Shown: one piece after another, positions 7,867 to 42,123 of the stretch | Layout: every line of letters starts with the position of its first letter | Position numbering within the stretch: position 1 is the first letter of the stretch | Source of the DNA: a virus | Length of the DNA stretch: 42,220 bases | Strand: one strand, 5' to 3' | IMG/VR virus record: IMGVR_UViG_3300027906_000046 | Span: 1 to 42,220 of that record | Notes under the pieces: model-generated | Told to the model about the DNA's origin: nothing | Databases searched by the model: none | The model's input: only the letters and a program-made list of their open reading frames with translations | Position numbers and translations under genes: made by a program

Positions 7867-8530
7867 ACTTATCTAATTCAAATTGTTGAATTGGTTTAGT
7901 ATTAGCATCTAGTAACTCTATGTTTCTTTTTGCCCAATCCATGTATCCTGTTTTCTGTCTAAAATCTTGATCATCTACACTTATTCTAGAATCAGGATAT
8001 CTACTAGAATAATACTCCCTATATAATTTATAAGTTTCTACAGTATCCTCTGGTCTAACAATAGTAGATCTATCATCTTTCATTTGAATACAAACAGCCC
8101 AATGATGAATCCATTCATCATTATCACAATCAAGCCATTGAAAAACTGGTTTCCTAAATATCCCATAATCCCAATGAGTAGGAAACCAGTCAGAACTTTT
8201 AGCATAGTTTCTTCTACCTAATCTTGGTAAATTTCTATCTGGGTTTCCTCCTAAGAATTTAAAGTCGGGGTTTGAATTTTGTAATTCATTTTTTAGATGC
8301 TGTTCTGAATTAAAAGTTAGTCTACATTCTTCAGACCATTCCCAGTCTAGTTTTTCTAAACGTTCTGCTTGTTTGTACAAATAGTCTTGTCCGGGAAATC
8401 CATTAATAGTATTGTATCTATTAATATCATTTTCTTTATGCTTCTCTTCGTTAAGTTTACAACAAATATACTCACCACCTTGTCCCGGATGGTACACTAG
8501 TACTCTTTGATGATCTTTGAACCAACTCAT
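7847..8530 (-). CDS. Sulfotransferase-like or P-loop-like phage protein, 227 aa
   Basis: The N-terminus runs [16 protein letters not shown], similar in pattern to the start of the protein at 35331-36032 (IVYPVGAGGQFLAY) and to phage proteins with a sulfotransferase-type phosphosulfate loop after the first strand. No canonical GxxxxGK(S/T) is present. The rest is rich in Trp and charged residues, with a possible helical C-terminus. A sulfotransferase-like fold is inference from this N-terminal pattern only. The ATG overlaps the stop of the ferredoxin gene (ATGA), so it is coupled to it, and the stop overlaps the convergent gene at 7492-7866. Confidence 0.6.
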
Positions 8531-8907
8531 TCCTCAGACTTTCCTGGTGGCATAGCTTTCTCGCTGAATAGATGCTTCTTTCCTTCTGGAAAATTATCAG
8601 GATGATATTTTTCATGCTCTGGCATAGGGTCATCATTTTCTGTTATAACAGGCCAAGCATTCTTTTCAATGAACTCAGCATTGTTATATTTTAACCAATA
8701 AGCTAACTCTTCTGGGTCTTTACTAGAATCTGTATCTGCCCAAATTGCCTCTACTGGACATTCAGGTTCACATACTCCACAGTCAATACATTCATCAGGA
8801 TTAATTACTAAAGTATTTTCGCCTTCGTAAAAACAGTCAACTGGGCATACCTCTACACAGTCTTTGTGTTTACACAAGACACACTTGTCGTCTACTAGGT
8901 AAGTCAT
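8527..8907 (-). CDS. fdxA: FdxA-type 7Fe ferredoxin
   Basis: The 126-residue product aligns by eye with Azotobacter vinelandii ferredoxin I. By analogy, C9, C17 and C50 would bind a [3Fe-4S] cluster and C21, C40, C43 and C46 a [4Fe-4S] cluster; C12 and C25 match the additional cysteines of that family. The segments [14 protein letters not shown] and [14 protein letters not shown] are hallmark sequences. The C-terminal extension (about residues 60-126) is acidic and polar as in bacterial FdxA. It is a small cytoplasmic electron carrier. The partner enzyme is unknown; a phage radical SAM protein lies at the left edge and ThyX uses flavin and NADPH, so neither link is established. The gene was probably acquired from a host. 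Confidence 0.92.
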
Positions 8908-35330: not shown

Positions 35331-36032
35331 CTACTCTTGCTTAAATAAATTTATATCATCTACTATCTGTTCTAATAGACGTCTTTGTTTATGTGTCCAA
35401 CGTTTTATAACTTTTACAAACTCGTCAGCATCTACTTCTATATCTAAATCTTTTCCTAAACTAGTTATAAAATCTCTTTGCCATTTTTCAATAAACCAAG
35501 TGTTGTAACTAAAATCTCTATCTACGTCTACTTCTTTTATACGTCTTATGTATTCAGGGTAATCAGGACAGTTGTCATGAGATACTACTGACTCTCTATC
35601 TTCTTTTGGATGGTAAAGAAATTCTGATAGATACCAATATTTTCTTTTAGTTTGACTTTTCTTATGTTCAATAGTATCGTTATCATCATAAAGATTTTTC
35701 ATTCTGCTATTAACTAAACACCAAAAAAGTTCTCCAGGCGTATGAGGAGTAATTGATACAACGTAATCGCCTTTTAATTTTTTTCGAGCATTCCAAGGAT
35801 CGTGTGGTCCTTCTGATCCAAAAAGTGAAGCATCTATTTTTAAGTCAGGTAAAGGATCAAACTCATGTCCAGCACACCATTCAGGAACATACTTCCATCT
35901 ATTATGTCCTTGTTCATGTGGAACAAATCTATACTGGGCAACCTGATCTTTAAAGCCCTTTGATATAGCATAGGCTAAAAATTGTCCGCCGGCGCCTACA
36001 GGATATACTATTCTGAGATTAGTCTTCTTCAT
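35331..36032 (-). CDS. Sulfotransferase-like P-loop protein, 233 aa
   Basis: The N-terminal strand-loop IVYPVGAGGQFLAY resembles the P-loop-like phosphosulfate-binding loop of phage and bacterial sulfotransferases, and is similar to the start of the 7847-8530 protein. The later part is rich in charged and aromatic residues. Neither PAPS-binding nor acceptor residues are identifiable with certainty. It is first in a row of three proteins with related N-termini (35331, 36029, 36978), separated by one membrane-protein gene. ATGA overlap with the upstream gene. Confidence 0.65.
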   Translation of the reverse strand: MKKTNLRIVYPVGAGGQFLAYAISKGFKDQVAQYRFVPHEQGHNRWKYVPEWCAGHEFDPLPDLKIDASLFGSEGPHDPWNARKKLKGDYVVSITPHTPGELFWCLVNSRMKNLYDDNDTIEHKKSQTKRKYWYLSEFLYHPKEDRESVVSHDNCPDYPEYIRRIKEVDVDRDFSYNTWFIEKWQRDFITSLGKDLDIEVDADEFVKVIKRWTHKQRRLLEQIVDDINLFKQE

Positions 36033-36628
36033 GCTTCAGCTATCCAAACGTCTTTCTCAAATATAAAGTCAGCGTCAATATTAAATTCGTTTCTAAGCCA
36101 TTCACGGCCGGGCTGTCTTAAAGGTAAGTTATTCTTATATACAAATTCTAGTATTGCTTTATTTTGTTCTGTTATTTGGTGATTCATTGTAGTGTTATCT
36201 CTGTACCATTCGTAATTAGGATAACTAATATCCCAACCACCTGCTTCATGCCACCACTTGTAGCACTCGTTATCCGATCTATAACACATTACAATTTTGC
36301 TTTCTGGAAACGTTTCTTTAATTTCATTTAGATAATAAGCAAAGTTATGACTTAATATTAACTTAATATCATCTTCTTTACCAGAATAACTTTTTGCTAT
36401 TTCTTCTTTCCACAAGTCAAATGACCCTAACTCTTTATCTAACCATTGTCCGTTAAGCATACCAGGACCATAATAGTTTCCTTTATGTCCACTGTACTTG
36501 TGATGTGTGTATTGTTTTTCGGGTACTAAATCTGTATTATCAACGTTAGTACCATAATCTCTAATATGTTGACTTACACCACTCCAACGACTACCAGGTG
36601 CTCCTGTAAAAAATATCCAATTCTTCAT
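36029..36628 (-). CDS. Sulfotransferase-like P-loop protein, 199 aa
   Basis: The first strand leads into GAPGSRWSGV (about 8-17), a loop like the phosphosulfate-binding GxxGSRxS loop of sulfotransferases. IVMCYRSDNEC (about 102-112) corresponds to the RxxxS stretch that contacts the 3'-phosphate in that family. This makes it the best sulfotransferase candidate of the three neighbours. The acceptor is unknown. It overlaps the membrane protein upstream by four bases. Confidence 0.75.
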   Translation of the reverse strand: MKNWIFFTGAPGSRWSGVSQHIRDYGTNVDNTDLVPEKQYTHHKYSGHKGNYYGPGMLNGQWLDKELGSFDLWKEEIAKSYSGKEDDIKLILSHNFAYYLNEIKETFPESKIVMCYRSDNECYKWWHEAGGWDISYPNYEWYRDNTTMNHQITEQNKAILEFVYKNNLPLRQPGREWLRNEFNIDADFIFEKDVWIAEA

Positions 36629-36978
36629 GTATATACACTTCCTATTATAAAGTAGTCAACTATAAATGTTAGTTCAGCACCCAAAAATACTGCTACCCAA
36701 TAGTTGCCTATCCAATCCCATAACTGCTTGATTACCCACCAAGCACATAATACTCTTATAGAGTATAACACATCAGCCCATATTATGTCAAGCCATAAAA
36801 ATGAATCTGCTTCAAAATAGTTGTAAAATACTAAATTGTCGTATATAAAACTTAATTGGGCCATAAAGAATACAGCCCAATAGTAGTTTAAGTATTTGTT
36901 TAAAAACTTAACTAGCGGTCCAGAAACTGCTAGTCTATAGAATACATAGATGACGTTAGTTAACGCCAACTCAAACAT
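36625..36978 (-). CDS. Membrane protein with internal duplication, 117 aa
   Basis: Four hydrophobic segments are visible. The two halves are related: RLAVSGPLVKFLNKYLNYYW...AQLSFIYDN and RVLCAWWVIKQLWDWIGNYW...AELTFIVDY, each ending with an acidic residue in a hydrophobic context. This is an internal tandem duplication. It is in the same operon as tctC but is shorter than the typical TctB and lacks any certain TctB motif; it could still replace it, or be a separate holin-like or transport protein. The start overlaps the stop of the preceding gene as TAATG. Confidence 0.7.
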   Translation of the reverse strand: MFELALTNVIYVFYRLAVSGPLVKFLNKYLNYYWAVFFMAQLSFIYDNLVFYNYFEADSFLWLDIIWADVLYSIRVLCAWWVIKQLWDWIGNYWVAVFLGAELTFIVDYFIIGSVYT

Positions 36979-37643
36979 TATTTTACTCTAGACTCGTCAT
37001 GAGGTAAACTGCCATCATTTAACAGTCCATCTCTTTTACGTTTATCTAACCAGCTATGTTCAACACTATGAACATATTTGGCATTTGGATCTTTGTTAAG
37101 AATGTAGTGAAGTCTTTCATCACTAGCATTTACTGGAATATTAAGCAAAGTGTCTAACGACTTTAAATATTGATGTCTAAACAAGTACAGCAATTCTACA
37201 CTTAAGAAAACGTGAGGATATGCTGTAAGATCTTCAATCTTATTAAGAAAGTTGTGATAGCTTTCTACTCCTCTTTTTCTTAATTGTCCTTGTGCCATAA
37301 TATTTTGATCTCTACCAATAATACCAACTTGAAGATTACCTACTTTGTTCAGTTCGCTTAATACTTCTTTATAATTAGGATAGACTGTTTGCTTTTTTCC
37401 GTCTATAATATCTACATAAGGACCACTTACACTAAGAACCCAGTTATTACTAATAGACCAATCATAGTCTTTAATAGTTTCAGGCTTAGACCAAATATCT
37501 TTAAATGGTGCTGAATCGTGATTTATCCAGTATTCTCTTAACAGGTCATCCCAACCTGATACATCATCATGTAATGATAATGCTTTAGAGTAAAGGTGAT
37601 TACCAGACCCTTGAGGCCCGGTAATTACTAAAATGTTTGTCAT
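36978..37643 (-). CDS. P-loop (sulfotransferase- or kinase-like) protein, 221 aa
   Basis: The first strand leads to TGPQGSGNHL (about 8-17), a GxxGSG.. P-loop-like sequence in which the usual lysine is replaced by Asn-His. NLQVGIIGRDQN (about 103-114) corresponds to a Rxx..motif-type strand. It is most likely a sulfotransferase-like enzyme; a nucleotide kinase is an alternative. It is directly downstream of tctC (TAATG overlap) and upstream of the duplicated membrane protein. Confidence 0.65.
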   Translation of the reverse strand: MTNILVITGPQGSGNHLYSKALSLHDDVSGWDDLLREYWINHDSAPFKDIWSKPETIKDYDWSISNNWVLSVSGPYVDIIDGKKQTVYPNYKEVLSELNKVGNLQVGIIGRDQNIMAQGQLRKRGVESYHNFLNKIEDLTAYPHVFLSVELLYLFRHQYLKSLDTLLNIPVNASDERLHYILNKDPNAKYVHSVEHSWLDKRKRDGLLNDGSLPHDESRVK

Positions 37644-38695
37644 TATTTTACAAGTTTCTCTTTGTATACTGCTGGAATACTTAAAGCATCATTTGAAAAC
37701 TTAATTAAGTCTCTTAATGAGTCTTCTGTAATAAACGACATCAAAGTATCTCTTTGATTGTTGCCTGCTTCACCAATAATCCAATCATACTTTCCAACTT
37801 TCTTTTGGATAGCCTTGATTGCTTGAGGATCTTTAGACATCTCTAACAAAGCCGCCTGTAGTTTCTCAGCATTAGGATTGCCTTTGTTTACCCAGAACGC
37901 TTTTTGTAATGAATCACGGAATGATTTTACAAGTTTATAAGCATCATACATTGGTCCTGATGGAGCAACACCCCATTTTTCTTCAAATAGGATTTCCATT
38001 TGTAAACCTGGATAGTTAGGATCGTCAGCGTGTGATCCGTCTGCTTGTAGAATACCATGATGGAACCAAACTGATGTGTCTGGGTTAGAAGCAACGTGCT
38101 TCTTATATGCCGCAGGATTTTCTCTGTCAACAGTTAGCTCACCACGTTTAAATGCTAAACGTCTAGCGCCACCGTTACCAAATCCTGGTACCCAGTTAAC
38201 GTGTTCTTTAAAACAAGCTGAATACTCATCAATTGATTTTCCTGGTCCACATAATAACATTGCCATTCCCATAGCATCAGGTACACGACCCGACTTTGAA
38301 GCAAAGATAATGTTTTCCATGTCAGTATCAAATCTCTTACCAACAATAATGTTTAAGTTCATCATACCAATTGATTCCCAATCAGCATAGTTATAGTCTA
38401 CATCTTCTTGTAAGAATGATACACCGTTACCACCATGTGATACCATAACAATAGTATCATCAAATCTTAGTTCGTTTTGAAAGGCGTTAACTGCCGGGAT
38501 ATCTCTAGCACCTGGAAAGTTTCTAAGTTTTAAAGTATCTTCTGGCATAAACCTTTGTAGTTCTTTAAGAACAATTTCAGTCCATACAGTTGTTCCTGAA
38601 CCGGGCTTCTGCGGTACAACAAACGTAAACGTTTCAGCAAAAGCTGAACCTGTAATGCCTAGTGTTAATACTAAAGCCATTAATAGTTTTTTCAT
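37643..38695 (-). CDS. tctC: TctC-like periplasmic tricarboxylate-binding protein
   Basis: The start is set at the ATG at 38695, which gives a clear Sec signal peptide (MKKLLMALVLTLGITGSAFA, cleavage after AFA) with an AAGAGGA ribosome binding site; the open frame continues upstream to 38728. The mature protein begins with a FVVPQKPGSGTTVW loop and has the domain arrangement of the tripartite tricarboxylate transporter (Bug/TctC) substrate-binding proteins, length about 330. It would bind a carboxylate or similar solute in the periplasm and deliver it to TctA/TctB. Phage-borne, probably taken from a host. The large leader (38696-38840) has a candidate late promoter. Confidence 0.85.
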   Translation of the reverse strand: MKKLLMALVLTLGITGSAFAETFTFVVPQKPGSGTTVWTEIVLKELQRFMPEDTLKLRNFPGARDIPAVNAFQNELRFDDTIVMVSHGGNGVSFLQEDVDYNYADWESIGMMNLNIIVGKRFDTDMENIIFASKSGRVPDAMGMAMLLCGPGKSIDEYSACFKEHVNWVPGFGNGGARRLAFKRGELTVDRENPAAYKKHVASNPDTSVWFHHGILQADGSHADDPNYPGLQMEILFEEKWGVAPSGPMYDAYKLVKSFRDSLQKAFWVNKGNPNAEKLQAALLEMSKDPQAIKAIQKKVGKYDWIIGEAGNNQRDTLMSFITEDSLRDLIKFSNDALSIPAVYKEKLVK

Positions 38696-38839
38696 TTTAT
38701 TTTCCTCTTGATTGTCAGAATTCAACAAGGAGTACTTGTCTCTTTCTTTTACGTTGTTTTTGAAATTTACACTTTGAACTCTGACACTCGTCTAAGTTTG
38801 TGTAGTTGTGAAGTAGCAATACAGCTCTGTATTACAATT

Positions 38840-39532
38840 TTATTTATCGTTTTTTCTTAGTACAAAGTAATATCTTATACCTCGTTCATTTACTTCTTGT
38901 TCGAGGGTTAAAATACTACAATTTAAAGCACTAGCAGAATTAATAATAAACTCATTAGTCCAATTAAAAAATTCTATCCATTGTGCCTCAGGAGCCTTGT
39001 GCTGTTCTCCTGGGTTAACTCTAAAGTATAATAATCCGTTGGGCTTTGTTAAGTTAACAGCATTCTTTAATTCAGCATATATTGTATCTACAGTACCAAA
39101 ATTAATACTACCTAAACAAATAGTAACATCATATTGTTCAGGCGACTTGTATTCTAATATACTGCTATTAATATCTGCTCTTTCATTGTACGGATCTACA
39201 CCAATTAAGTTGTTTATCTTTCCTTTGAATTCATTATAGCCACAGCCTAAGTCTAAAACTTTTAAAGGATTTAAACTGTTAACTTCATCTATAATACTTA
39301 ATCCACTATACTTGTACTTTTTTGTAATAGGTTGCCACGTGGTGGTAAAATACTTTTTAAGTACGTGATAGTGGATAAGCTCTGTTAACTCTTTAACATT
39401 AGTAAACTCAATGTCTTTGATGTTAACACCAAAAGTTCCATTGATTGCCTGCTGTAAGAGTTTATTGTTATCTAATAGCTGTGGACTAGATTGAAACATA
39501 GTACACAGTCTATCTAAAACTCTACGATTCAT
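38840..39532 (-). CDS. SAM methyltransferase, paralogue of 34729-35325
   Basis: Motif I VLDLGCGYNEF (about 92-102) and GVDPYNERADI (about 111-121) are class I SAM methyltransferase motifs; LTKPNGLLYFRVNPGE (about 172-187) is the later strand-loop. It is paralogous to 34729-35325 with a longer N-terminus (about 70 residues extra). It sits in the tct operon between the SAP-like gene and tctC. Substrate unknown. Confidence 0.88.
   Translation of the reverse strand: MNRRVLDRLCTMFQSSPQLLDNNKLLQQAINGTFGVNIKDIEFTNVKELTELIHYHVLKKYFTTTWQPITKKYKYSGLSIIDEVNSLNPLKVLDLGCGYNEFKGKINNLIGVDPYNERADINSSILEYKSPEQYDVTICLGSINFGTVDTIYAELKNAVNLTKPNGLLYFRVNPGEQHKAPEAQWIEFFNWTNEFIINSASALNCSILTLEQEVNERGIRYYFVLRKNDK
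38841..38848 (-). promoter_or_regulatory. Candidate late promoter (GATAAATA) before tctC
   Basis: The minus strand reads GATAAATA (NATAAATA), about 146 bases upstream of the tctC ATG and overlapping the last codons of the preceding gene. Because it uses the codons for a C-terminal Asp-Lys-stop, chance is possible. The intergenic stretch 38696-38839 holds no gene I can find and no sigma70 promoter; a short inverted repeat (AATACAG/CTGTATT) near 38819-38835 lacks a T-run. Confidence 0.4.
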
Positions 39533-39540
39533 TAATTACC

Positions 39541-39819
39541 TTATAATGCTTTGTGTAATGTTACTACTAGTTTGTCTTTTTTAAGACGTCTATCTAGTTC
39601 AATACCTTTTTTTCTGCCTAGCTCTTCTAATTGAACTTTAGTTAATTTACCAAGTTCTTTTTTAGTAGGCTTTTTTCCTTTTTTAGCTGTAGTTTTTTTA
39701 GTTGTTACAGCTTTCTTTTTAACTTCATTAGTTAGCACTAATGGTTTAGCCATTTCTTTTGCTTTTTCTTTACCAAAGAAAATTTCAGTTAGAGTAGGCC
39801 ATCCTTTGAAAATACTCAT
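39541..39819 (-). CDS. Lys-rich protein with SAP-like C-terminus, 92 aa
   Basis: Residues 34-57 are a Lys/Thr/Ala-rich, histone-H1-like stretch (VKKKAVTTKKTTAKKGKK). The C-terminus (about 58-92: LTKVQLEELGRKKGIELDRRLKKDKLV) resembles the SAP or Rho N-terminal-type helix-extended loop-helix that binds nucleic acids. A DNA- or RNA-binding role is inferred. The unusual N-terminus (FKGWPTLTEIFFG) suggests an interaction site. Start ATG at 39819 with an AGGAG ribosome binding site. Confidence 0.7.
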   Translation of the reverse strand: MSIFKGWPTLTEIFFGKEKAKEMAKPLVLTNEVKKKAVTTKKTTAKKGKKPTKKELGKLTKVQLEELGRKKGIELDRRLKKDKLVVTLHKAL

Positions 39820-39829
39820 TGTATTTCTC

Positions 39830-40537
39830 CTATATGTCTACCACATTATCAAAACTACCAAACTGTACTAGATCTCTTGTAAGGTCTGTAGTTAGCCCAG
39901 TAATTTGTAACATTGGCCTATTGTCCCAACCCATGTTACAAGTGGCGTGTGGTATATCCCGCCACTCCCACGTTATACATTGTCCTTTGCTCCATTGATG
40001 CCAGTTGCTATTACCTAATTGAAATACTTGTCCGTGTTTCCAATCATCTAACATAATAACAAACCTTCTCATAAGCTCAGGGTTCTTATCTGCTTCTATT
40101 TCAACAAAACTATTTCCACGTTCTTTACGACCCGCGAAATTGTCTATATGCCAATTTAACATTTGTCCTGTTATTTGGTTATGGAACTTAATTGTTGTTT
40201 CTTCCATCCCAAAGTAATTAGCAATCTTTTTAAAAACTTCTATATCTTCTGCCTTTGTCCTTTTGAATACTTCCATATTAGGATTTGCTCCTGCTCTTTC
40301 TAAGTCGTATTCTTCTTGGTTGGCACTATAAATTCTTTCTTTTCCGTCTACTTTGTTTCGTGTAGCCCATGTACTTGTTACTACTCTTTCTAAGCATTCG
40401 TTAACAGCGTCTTCCCAATCACCATTAAACGTACAAACTTCTTGGTAATCTTTACTTTTTACATCTGGTTTAAAATGCCAGTTGCTCTGTTTCTTTGTAA
40501 AATCCCAACGGCTTTTACCCCAATCTTCACTTGTCAT
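39830..40537 (-). CDS. 2-oxoglutarate/Fe(II)-dependent oxygenase-like protein
   Basis: H130-x-D132 (WHID) provides the iron facial triad, H197 (IPHAT) the distal histidine, and R207 (NRPML) the 2-oxoglutarate carboxylate contact. Spacing of 65 residues from HxD to the distal histidine is usual. The segment RRFVIMLDDWKHGQVF is the core strand. It is the second such enzyme in the window, not closely similar to that at 16318. Its substrate is unknown. Starts with ATG 12 bases after the small gene 40550-40684. Confidence 0.82.
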   Translation of the reverse strand: MTSEDWGKSRWDFTKKQSNWHFKPDVKSKDYQEVCTFNGDWEDAVNECLERVVTSTWATRNKVDGKERIYSANQEEYDLERAGANPNMEVFKRTKAEDIEVFKKIANYFGMEETTIKFHNQITGQMLNWHIDNFAGRKERGNSFVEIEADKNPELMRRFVIMLDDWKHGQVFQLGNSNWHQWSKGQCITWEWRDIPHATCNMGWDNRPMLQITGLTTDLTRDLVQFGSFDNVVDI

Positions 40538-40549
40538 TATTTTTCCGAT

Positions 40550-40684
40550 CTACTTTATACTTCCGTTTAATACACGTTTACTATTCGGATGCCTTTTTGC
40601 TGTAAACGTGGCGTGGGACATATTTTTTTTAAAACGAGGTTGTCCTCTTACCGTTTTTATTCCTGGTACTGCTCTTTTTCCCAT
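40550..40684 (-). CDS. Small basic protein downstream of tctA, 44 aa
   Basis: The ATG overlaps the tctA stop (TAATG) and is preceded by a GGAG ribosome binding site eight to nine bases upstream; the stop lies 12 bases before the oxygenase start. The 44-residue product is strongly basic (many Lys and Arg, one Asp/Glu at most), with the segment NMSHATFTAKRHPNSKR near 21-37. A vague likeness to the N-terminal part of ribosomal protein bL28 (basic, GKR..G..., SHA) was noticed but cannot be substantiated by eye. Likely RNA-binding. Confidence 0.55.
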   Translation of the reverse strand: MGKRAVPGIKTVRGQPRFKKNMSHATFTAKRHPNSKRVLNGSIK

Positions 40685-42123
40685 TATGAATACTCCAATT
40701 TATTTTTTCTAGAAACACCGTATACAAACAAGCCAACAATCAGTACACACAATACTAAAAAGATAGGTCTTTGTAGTAATTTATCAAAAGTATAAATGTG
40801 TATTAAGTTTAATGTTAGCGATTCAAATTTAGTAGCAAGTATAAATGCCATAAGCATACCTGGTCTACTAAACTTATATTTTTTACAAACAACACCTAGT
40901 ACCGAACATATTGCTAGTATGGCATAGTCTTCCCAGCCGCCTGTATATTGTACACAGGCCCAAATTATAAATGCTACAATTAAAGGGAAATAATATATGT
41001 AAGGCACATAACAGATCTTAGCAATATATCTGTTAAATGCTATACAGATAACACCAACTAATACTGTTGCCCACATAAAGCCAAATGTTAAACTGTCAAA
41101 AAACTTTGTGTCGTAAGCAATCTCTTGAGCACCTAGTTCAAAGCCTAAGTACATAAACAGTCCCATAAGAACTGCGGCAAAACTTGCCCCTGGTATGCCA
41201 AACAATACTGTTGGAATCATACTAGTTGCTTTTTGTGAGTTGTTAGCACCTTCAGGTCCTACTACTCCTCTAATATTACCTTTACCAAATTCTTCATTAG
41301 GGTGAGTTGCTACTGTTGAACCATATGCCATCCAGTCTGCCATAGCACCACCAATGCCTGGTAAGAATCCTATAAAGGCTCCAATGGCTCCGCCACGTAG
41401 GGCGTCCCATTTCATTTTCCATACTACTTTAATACCTTCCCAAGTTTGTTTCACTTGAGTGTCTTCTTTCATATGAGCTACTTGTTGGCCTTTCCTCCAG
41501 CCATCTAATATTTCTGGGAAAGCAAATAGTCCAGCAACAAAAGGCATAAGTTGTACACCGTCGCCTAAGTATTCCCAACCACCTGTGTATCTATCAAAGT
41601 TTGTTAATGGATCAGTTCCTATAAGTCCTATTCCAAGTCCTACAAGAATTGCTATAATACTTCTAAACCAAAATCTGTTACTAACAAATCCTACACAGGC
41701 AAGAGCCATTACCATGAATGCCCATAACTCTGGAATACCAAAGTACATAATAAGTTGTACATACCAAGGCAATAAAGCAAAGGTTAGTGTACCCCATATA
41801 AGTCCGTTAAGTGTTGAAGTTGTAATTGCGGCCGTTAAAGCATAAGTGGCCTTGCCTTGTTTTGCTAACGGGTATCCGTCAACCATAGTTGCCGCGGCAG
41901 AATTGGCGCCTGGTATTCCTAGTAATATTCCTGAGTATGTGTCGCCTGTTGTACTGGCGGCTACTACTGCCATACAAAATATTACGCCTAAGTAAGGGTC
42001 AAATCCAAAGTAACTAATAAATCCAAATAAAGCTACTAGTCCTGTTGTAGCACCTGCACTTGGTACTAATCCTACAATTAGACCATATAGTGTTCCGGCT
42101 AATAGTGTGTAAATTTCTTCCAT
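40684..42123 (-). CDS. tctA: TctA-like tripartite tricarboxylate transporter membrane subunit
   Basis: The 479-residue protein has many hydrophobic segments and the conserved GLVPSAGATTG near residues 17-27, ILLGIPGANSAAATMVDG (about 65-82), GFLPGIGGAMADW (about 255-267), and a second FGIPGASFAAVLMGL repeat (about 308-322). These duplicated loop motifs identify TctA, the large subunit that moves carboxylates with sodium or protons. In bacteria it works with TctB (small, four-helix) and TctC (binding protein). TctC is present at 37643-38695; TctB is not evident. Start ATG at 42123. A CTAAATA box about 40 bases upstream is a weak late-promoter candidate. Confidence 0.93.
   Translation of the reverse strand: MEEIYTLLAGTLYGLIVGLVPSAGATTGLVALFGFISYFGFDPYLGVIFCMAVVAASTTGDTYSGILLGIPGANSAAATMVDGYPLAKQGKATYALTAAITTSTLNGLIWGTLTFALLPWYVQLIMYFGIPELWAFMVMALACVGFVSNRFWFRSIIAILVGLGIGLIGTDPLTNFDRYTGGWEYLGDGVQLMPFVAGLFAFPEILDGWRKGQQVAHMKEDTQVKQTWEGIKVVWKMKWDALRGGAIGAFIGFLPGIGGAMADWMAYGSTVATHPNEEFGKGNIRGVVGPEGANNSQKATSMIPTVLFGIPGASFAAVLMGLFMYLGFELGAQEIAYDTKFFDSLTFGFMWATVLVGVICIAFNRYIAKICYVPYIYYFPLIVAFIIWACVQYTGGWEDYAILAICSVLGVVCKKYKFSRPGMLMAFILATKFESLTLNLIHIYTFDKLLQRPIFLVLCVLIVGLFVYGVSRKNKLEYS

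Follow-up and report, generated by a model that had tools for sequence, protein, structure and literature searches.

The tctAC Locus and Its Phage Context

The window, i.e., the whole stretch of 42,220 bases analyzed here (GC 33.7%), is a T4-like virus record from IMG/VR with a block of minus-strand genes that includes tctA (40684..42123), coding for a 479-aa permease, and tctC (37643..38695), coding for a secreted 350-aa substrate-binding protein. Between these two lie the genes for a 235-aa protein that resembles 2OG-Fe(II) oxygenases by eye (39830..40537), a 92-aa SAP-like basic protein (39541..39819) and a 230-aa methyltransferase-like protein (38840..39532). On the other side of tctC are the genes for a 221-aa protein that, judging by the junction sequence, begins right where tctC stops (36978..37643), a 117-aa membrane protein built of two repeated halves (36625..36978) and a 199-aa protein with a nucleotide-binding-like start, GAPGSRWSG (36029..36628). 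An earlier note, made from the letters of this DNA, had described tctA and tctC as interleaved with methyltransferase, oxygenase and SAP-like genes. These genes are indeed present, but profile searches back their family labels more weakly: the methyltransferase-like protein matches Methyltransf_23 at an E of 3e-4, under the Pfam cut-off; the 235-aa and 92-aa proteins, like the 199-aa one, have no Pfam match; and the sole match of the SAP-like protein is to PHROG 3281 'endonuclease VII' (E 7e-4). The Pfam search likewise returned no family above the cut-off for the 221-aa protein. Families of the cassette recur beside tctAC in other viruses, with the methyltransferase-like family being the commonest neighbor (63 of 78 tctAC contigs), followed by the GAPGSRWSG (41/78) and the oxygenase-like (27/78) families. 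Elsewhere in the window (8527-8907), a 126-aa ORF with two cysteine clusters was judged by eye to be ferredoxin-like.

The wider genomic setting is provided by a 204-kb sister contig (IMGVR_UViG_3300013116_000108), whose tctA is 99% identical to that of the window. Here, genes for a virion structural protein and the large terminase directly precede tctA, those for the tail tube and sheath lie further upstream, and those for SSB and UvsX are found downstream of the tctAC cassette. This position of the cassette between terminase/structural and SSB/UvsX genes indicates phage DNA rather than host contamination. Thus, via the sister contig, tctA and tctC present themselves as phage auxiliary metabolic genes, i.e., metabolic genes of cellular type residing on bona fide phage DNA.

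Identification of TctA and TctC

The permease is readily recognized: starting from an ATG, the window TctA matches the Pfam TctA model (PF01970) over residues 6-423 with an E of 8.1e-98 (a score of 328 bits where the cut-off is 28.9) and has two GIPGA motifs. Pairwise dN/dS values of 0.03-0.17 against its relatives point to purifying selection. By these sequence criteria, the product of 40684..42123 is an intact TctA permease, as had been claimed from the letters.

The partner required more effort. Its ORF can be opened at a TTG (37643-38728), as originally read, but the ATG at 38695, which is preceded by a GAGG ribosome-binding site, is the likelier start and yields the 350-aa protein. A Sec signal is evident in this protein, with cleavage after AFA and before the following E. 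It matched no Pfam or PHROG family; moreover, the Pfam TctC model matched none of 44 virus TctCs at an E of 0.1, nor the two long SAR11 TctCs that were scanned. A profile search begun from the virus TctC reached BugD at an E of only 0.02. Sequence-level identification through Pfam, PHROGs and a PDB sequence search thus gave nothing significant, and the fold search alone was decisive. An AlphaFold2 model built from the 44 virus sequences (mean pLDDT 92) was compared with the PDB, where the 11 best matches are without exception members of the TctC/Bug family or periplasmic proteins that share this fold but are unnamed (VIA Z 19.9-21.9, with 267-275 aligned residues each), including Bug27, TphC, a terephthalate binder, Rpa4515, BugD, MatC, 2dvz and a Polaromonas TctC. 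The next match, PtxB, has a Z of 13.6, and Foldseek E-values to TctC/Bug structures go down to 1e-10. The uniformity of these top matches, together with the gap that follows them, identifies the 350-aa protein, as modeled, as a TctC/Bug substrate-binding protein by fold that sequence HMMs miss. The earlier claims of a phage-borne tctC and of a signal peptide on its product are therefore borne out. Of the HMM matches by which that note proposed to judge the two proteins, the one for TctA was obtained, while that for TctC failed at the level of sequence and was made good by fold.

As with tctA, tctC appears to be under purifying selection (pairwise dN/dS 0.07-0.15). In TctC proteins, the substrate carboxylate is held by two loops via two waters, with the signature P-F-x-A-G-G-x-x-D (PMC5812351). 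Across the 44 virus TctCs, both carboxylate-holding loops are nearly invariant, namely PQKPGxGT and SGxxP[ED], the second of which was assigned by topology. The first reads P-Q-K-P-G-x-G-T-[ST] in the virus proteins, with a hydroxyl residue in place of the signature aspartate, a type of substitution mentioned in the TTT review (PMC5812351). Three further motifs, RRLAFKRGEL, RENPAA and WFHHGIL, which include several arginines and histidines, are likewise nearly invariant. The uniformity of these arginine-rich motifs across divergent phages suggests, as far as sequence conservation can tell, that the virus TctCs share one anionic ligand.

Pairing and Spread among Viruses

Virus-type tctA is present at 513 or more loci in IMG/VR and virus-type tctC at 243, which is likewise a lower bound; with few exceptions the two genes are adjacent. 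In the 78 distinct tctA genes that share a locus with tctC, the latter follows the former at a median offset of -3 nt, meaning that the tctA stop and the tctC start codons overlap. At a few loci the order is reversed or, as in the window, other genes lie between the two. TctC and the 117-aa protein are both absent from 50,697 GenBank phage records, in which TctA matches are found solely at about 26-31% identity, and then in records that are unannotated or resemble prophages. One 182-kb virus record, G169 (IMGVR_UViG_3300026097_001223), codes for a second, conventional TctB-TctA pair (L201:8986-10919, corresponding to ~116,985-118,918 of the record) that has no obvious tctC beside it and lies about 45 kb from the record's own virus-type tctAC.

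Absence of TctB and the Small Membrane Proteins

A TctB subunit, either separate or fused, is expected of a TTT. The Pfam TctB model finds none in the window and none in 29 of 30 tctAC-bearing virus records (including ones of 204, 184 and 328 kb), the exception being G169. The window and the virus loci together comprise 6,570 ORFs, and HMMs built on free TctBs or on fused TctB domains found none among these either, while recovering the control TctBs. A TctB concealed as a small ORF was ruled out with three HMMs. Because the virus records are mostly fragments, this absence is firm around tctAC and on the largest contigs, and less so genome-wide. The impression of the earlier note that tctB is missing therefore stands for the window and for the sister contig. 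On the latter, the structural protein and terminase that precede tctA also exclude the tctB that might have lain just beyond the edge of the window.

Two families of small membrane proteins are candidates for an accessory role with tctAC. The first is the 117-aa protein, which was correctly perceived as duplicated: its halves align with each other well above shuffled sequences, with a Z of 5.5 in the window and 8-15 in relatives, indicating an internal tandem duplication, and its gene has dN/dS values of 0.08-0.14, consistent with purifying selection. All records above 100 kb with this protein have tctA, while two records of 73-99 kb have the protein and lack tctA; in other phages its gene lies up to 11 kb away from tctA. 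The second is DUF6552 (PF20189), of 72-98 aa, which occurs just behind tctC in about 20 of the 78 tctAC contigs (e.g., L041:13167-13406). In the loci examined it trails tctA by 1-2 kb, and it is also found near tctA in G200, a record chosen via UvsX rather than tctA. The two never occur together in the 33 tctA-bearing records, 11 of which have neither, and both are absent from the tctA-negative UvsX controls. This exclusivity has a P of 0.004 over the 33 records and of about 0.08 once the records picked through the 117-aa protein are removed, both values ignoring the relatedness of the records. We considered either family as a divergent TctB, but neither displays profile similarity to it; for the 117-aa protein there is no Pfam match, and hhalign against TctB (PF07331), itself a very divergent family, gives a probability of 0.3%.

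Cellular Relatives and Origin

Distant TctC relatives are present among 147 Pelagibacterales genomes. In several of the genomes with such a relative, TctB is detected inside a 651-668 aa frame, namely a TctA extended at its C-terminus by a stretch that Pfam matches best to TctB, at E-values of 8e-6 to 3e-4 (below the cut-off). The same architecture is seen more broadly in Alphaproteobacteria, where 8 loci with TctC relatives were examined: at 6 of them a long TctC (366-401 aa) adjoins a TctA-TctB fusion of 652-749 aa, a seventh shows no TctA within the fetched stretch, and the eighth has the conventional arrangement tctC-tctB-tctA. An alphaproteobacterial contig (L382:3659-9251) has three tandem TctC-like ORFs ahead of one TctA-TctB fusion.

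In profile comparisons (hhalign), the virus TctC matches the long SAR11 TctC with 99.7% probability (E 6e-27), as against 5% for the conventional SAR11 TctC. In the TctA tree, the virus clade groups with the fusion clade and apart from conventional TctA with a support of 100/100, in a tree of limited cellular sampling for which the tree tool gave a long-branch warning. A single cellular subtype is thus indicated by both genes. The virus tctAC is most likely descended from the bacterial subtype combining a long TctC (352-401 aa in alphaproteobacterial/SAR11 systems) with a TctA-TctB fusion (651-749 aa), or has a common ancestor with it. The cellular and virus systems resemble each other in the TctC profile, the sister relationship of TctA and the adjacency of the two genes. 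They differ in that the 479-aa virus TctA is devoid of the TctB domain, ending where that domain begins in its closest cellular relatives, and in that the virus order is mostly tctA-tctC as opposed to the cellular tctC-tctAB. Either loss of TctB in the virus line or a later fusion in the cellular line may account for this difference.

Hardly any of the sampled cells have virus-type TctC, and a simple recent capture of tctC from a host is thus unsupported. At an E of 1e-30, the Pelagibacterales and Alphaproteobacteria samples yielded it only in the seed genome, the match lying on a phage contig within a MAG. A TctA-profile scan of 84,980 species genomes, which used narrow peptide patterns, returned three loci, of which one lies on a phage contig. 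Virus-type tctAC is also seen on bacterial-looking contigs of a marine bacterium B5-7 MAG (L139:5995-8497) and an Omnitrophota MAG (L141:3168-4604), for which phage-to-host transfer and binning error are both possible explanations; no TctB lies beside tctAC in either or anywhere in the Omnitrophota genome, a draft MAG. In the class to which the B5-7 genome belongs, a further 368 sampled genomes have no virus-type TctC at an E of 1e-30.

Proposed Function and Alternatives

The simplest account of the TctC/TctA pair is organic-acid uptake in infected cells. We propose that TctC, secreted to the periplasm, would bind a small organic anion and pass it to TctA, which would bring it into the infected cell by means of an ion gradient; the phage might thereby sustain or redirect the carbon supply during replication. 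The pair would do so without a TctB of its own, as a two-part TTT importer descending from the fused subtype. We consider this reading probable, although transport activity, ion coupling, substrate, host, benefit to the phage and independence from TctB are what we infer. Weighing against it, the host or an unrecognized small membrane protein, such as the one that some tctAC phages have beside tctC, might supply the TctB function, and G169 holds a separate conventional TctB-TctA.

Supply by the host would mean that the phage gives permease and receptor while the host gives the small subunit, as the earlier note had entertained. This would explain why there is no phage tctB, and TctB is available in some plausible hosts, being present in 28 of 97 SAR11-order genomes; none was shown in the remaining 69, however, the free host TctBs pair with TctAs that the tree places far from that of the phage, and in the nearest type TctB is joined to TctA in one chain rather than being a free subunit. 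We therefore regard the feeding of a host TctB as unlikely, while the carboxylate-uptake role proposed alongside it remains likely on sequence grounds. Replacement of TctB as the third subunit by a small phage protein, namely the 117-aa one (as the earlier note had suggested) or DUF6552 elsewhere, is likewise unlikely. Both proteins are small and conserved, track tctA in the larger records or lie close behind it even in the UvsX-picked G200, exclude each other and are missing from the tctA-negative controls. Yet neither resembles TctB in profile, the 117-aa gene can be as far as 11 kb from tctA, a third of the tctA-bearing records (11/33) do without either, and the exclusivity is weak among records not chosen through the 117-aa protein. 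Finally, TctC and TctA might serve in sensing, or in blocking the envelope against other phages, instead of uptake: substrate-binding proteins can act as sensors (e.g., Bordetella BctC), and the methyltransferase- and oxygenase-like cassette around tctAC is of unexplained purpose. A sensor or blocker, however, would need no intact and strongly conserved permease tied to the receptor in nearly every locus, which renders this option very improbable. Returning to the two-part importer, we advance as a tentative generalization, with the odds close to balanced but leaning slightly against it, that tctAC has been kept across many marine T4-like phage lineages as a virus-specific, TctB-free two-component TTT that emerged from the fused subtype and is dedicated to one ligand.

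Relation to Known Systems and Significance

With the prototype TTT, TctCBA of Salmonella (TC 2.A.80; PMC5812351), the virus system shares the TctA permease family and the TctC/Bug fold; unlike the prototype, it lacks TctB, its TctC is longer and unmatched by the Pfam TctC model, and the loop signature P-F-x-A-G-G-x-x-D is altered as described above. TctB itself is uncharacterized, with no function known (PMC5812351, PMC13390454), and the functioning of TctA without TctB has been proposed previously for archaeal stand-alone TctAs (PMC5898192), most of which, in contrast to the virus system, also lack TctC. Among viruses, a domain hit to tctA has been recorded on contigs of SUP05 viruses (eLife 2014, PMC4164917), and an OMZ myovirus scaffold that carries norB/nirK has neighboring genes annotated for tricarboxylate transport (PMC8115048). 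These reports likewise concern tctA-type genes on marine virus contigs, and their passages on those contigs mention neither a pairing with TctC nor a lack of TctB nor where in cells the genes came from. In the open-access literature, which leaves preprints and subscription papers aside, we found no report of a TctC partner, of TctB loss or of a link to the fused subtype. Thus, the occurrence of tctA on marine virus contigs was known before, and what the sequence comparisons appear to add is the TctC partner, the absence of TctB and the fused-subtype link.

The best-known phage uptake genes concern phosphate, with the phage-borne phosphate-binding protein PstS being a known phosphorus auxiliary metabolic gene. 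In both cases the phage provides a periplasmic binding protein for nutrient uptake; virus tctAC differs in giving the binding protein and the permease together and in its putative substrate class, organic anions. Here, a virus supplies both the receptor and the permease of a putative organic-anion importer, and this on at least hundreds of marine virus contigs. As a natural and conserved TctB-less system standing beside cellular relatives with a fused TctB, it makes the need for TctB directly testable. If the proposed function is true, marine phages would alter the choice of dissolved organic acids imported by infected cells.
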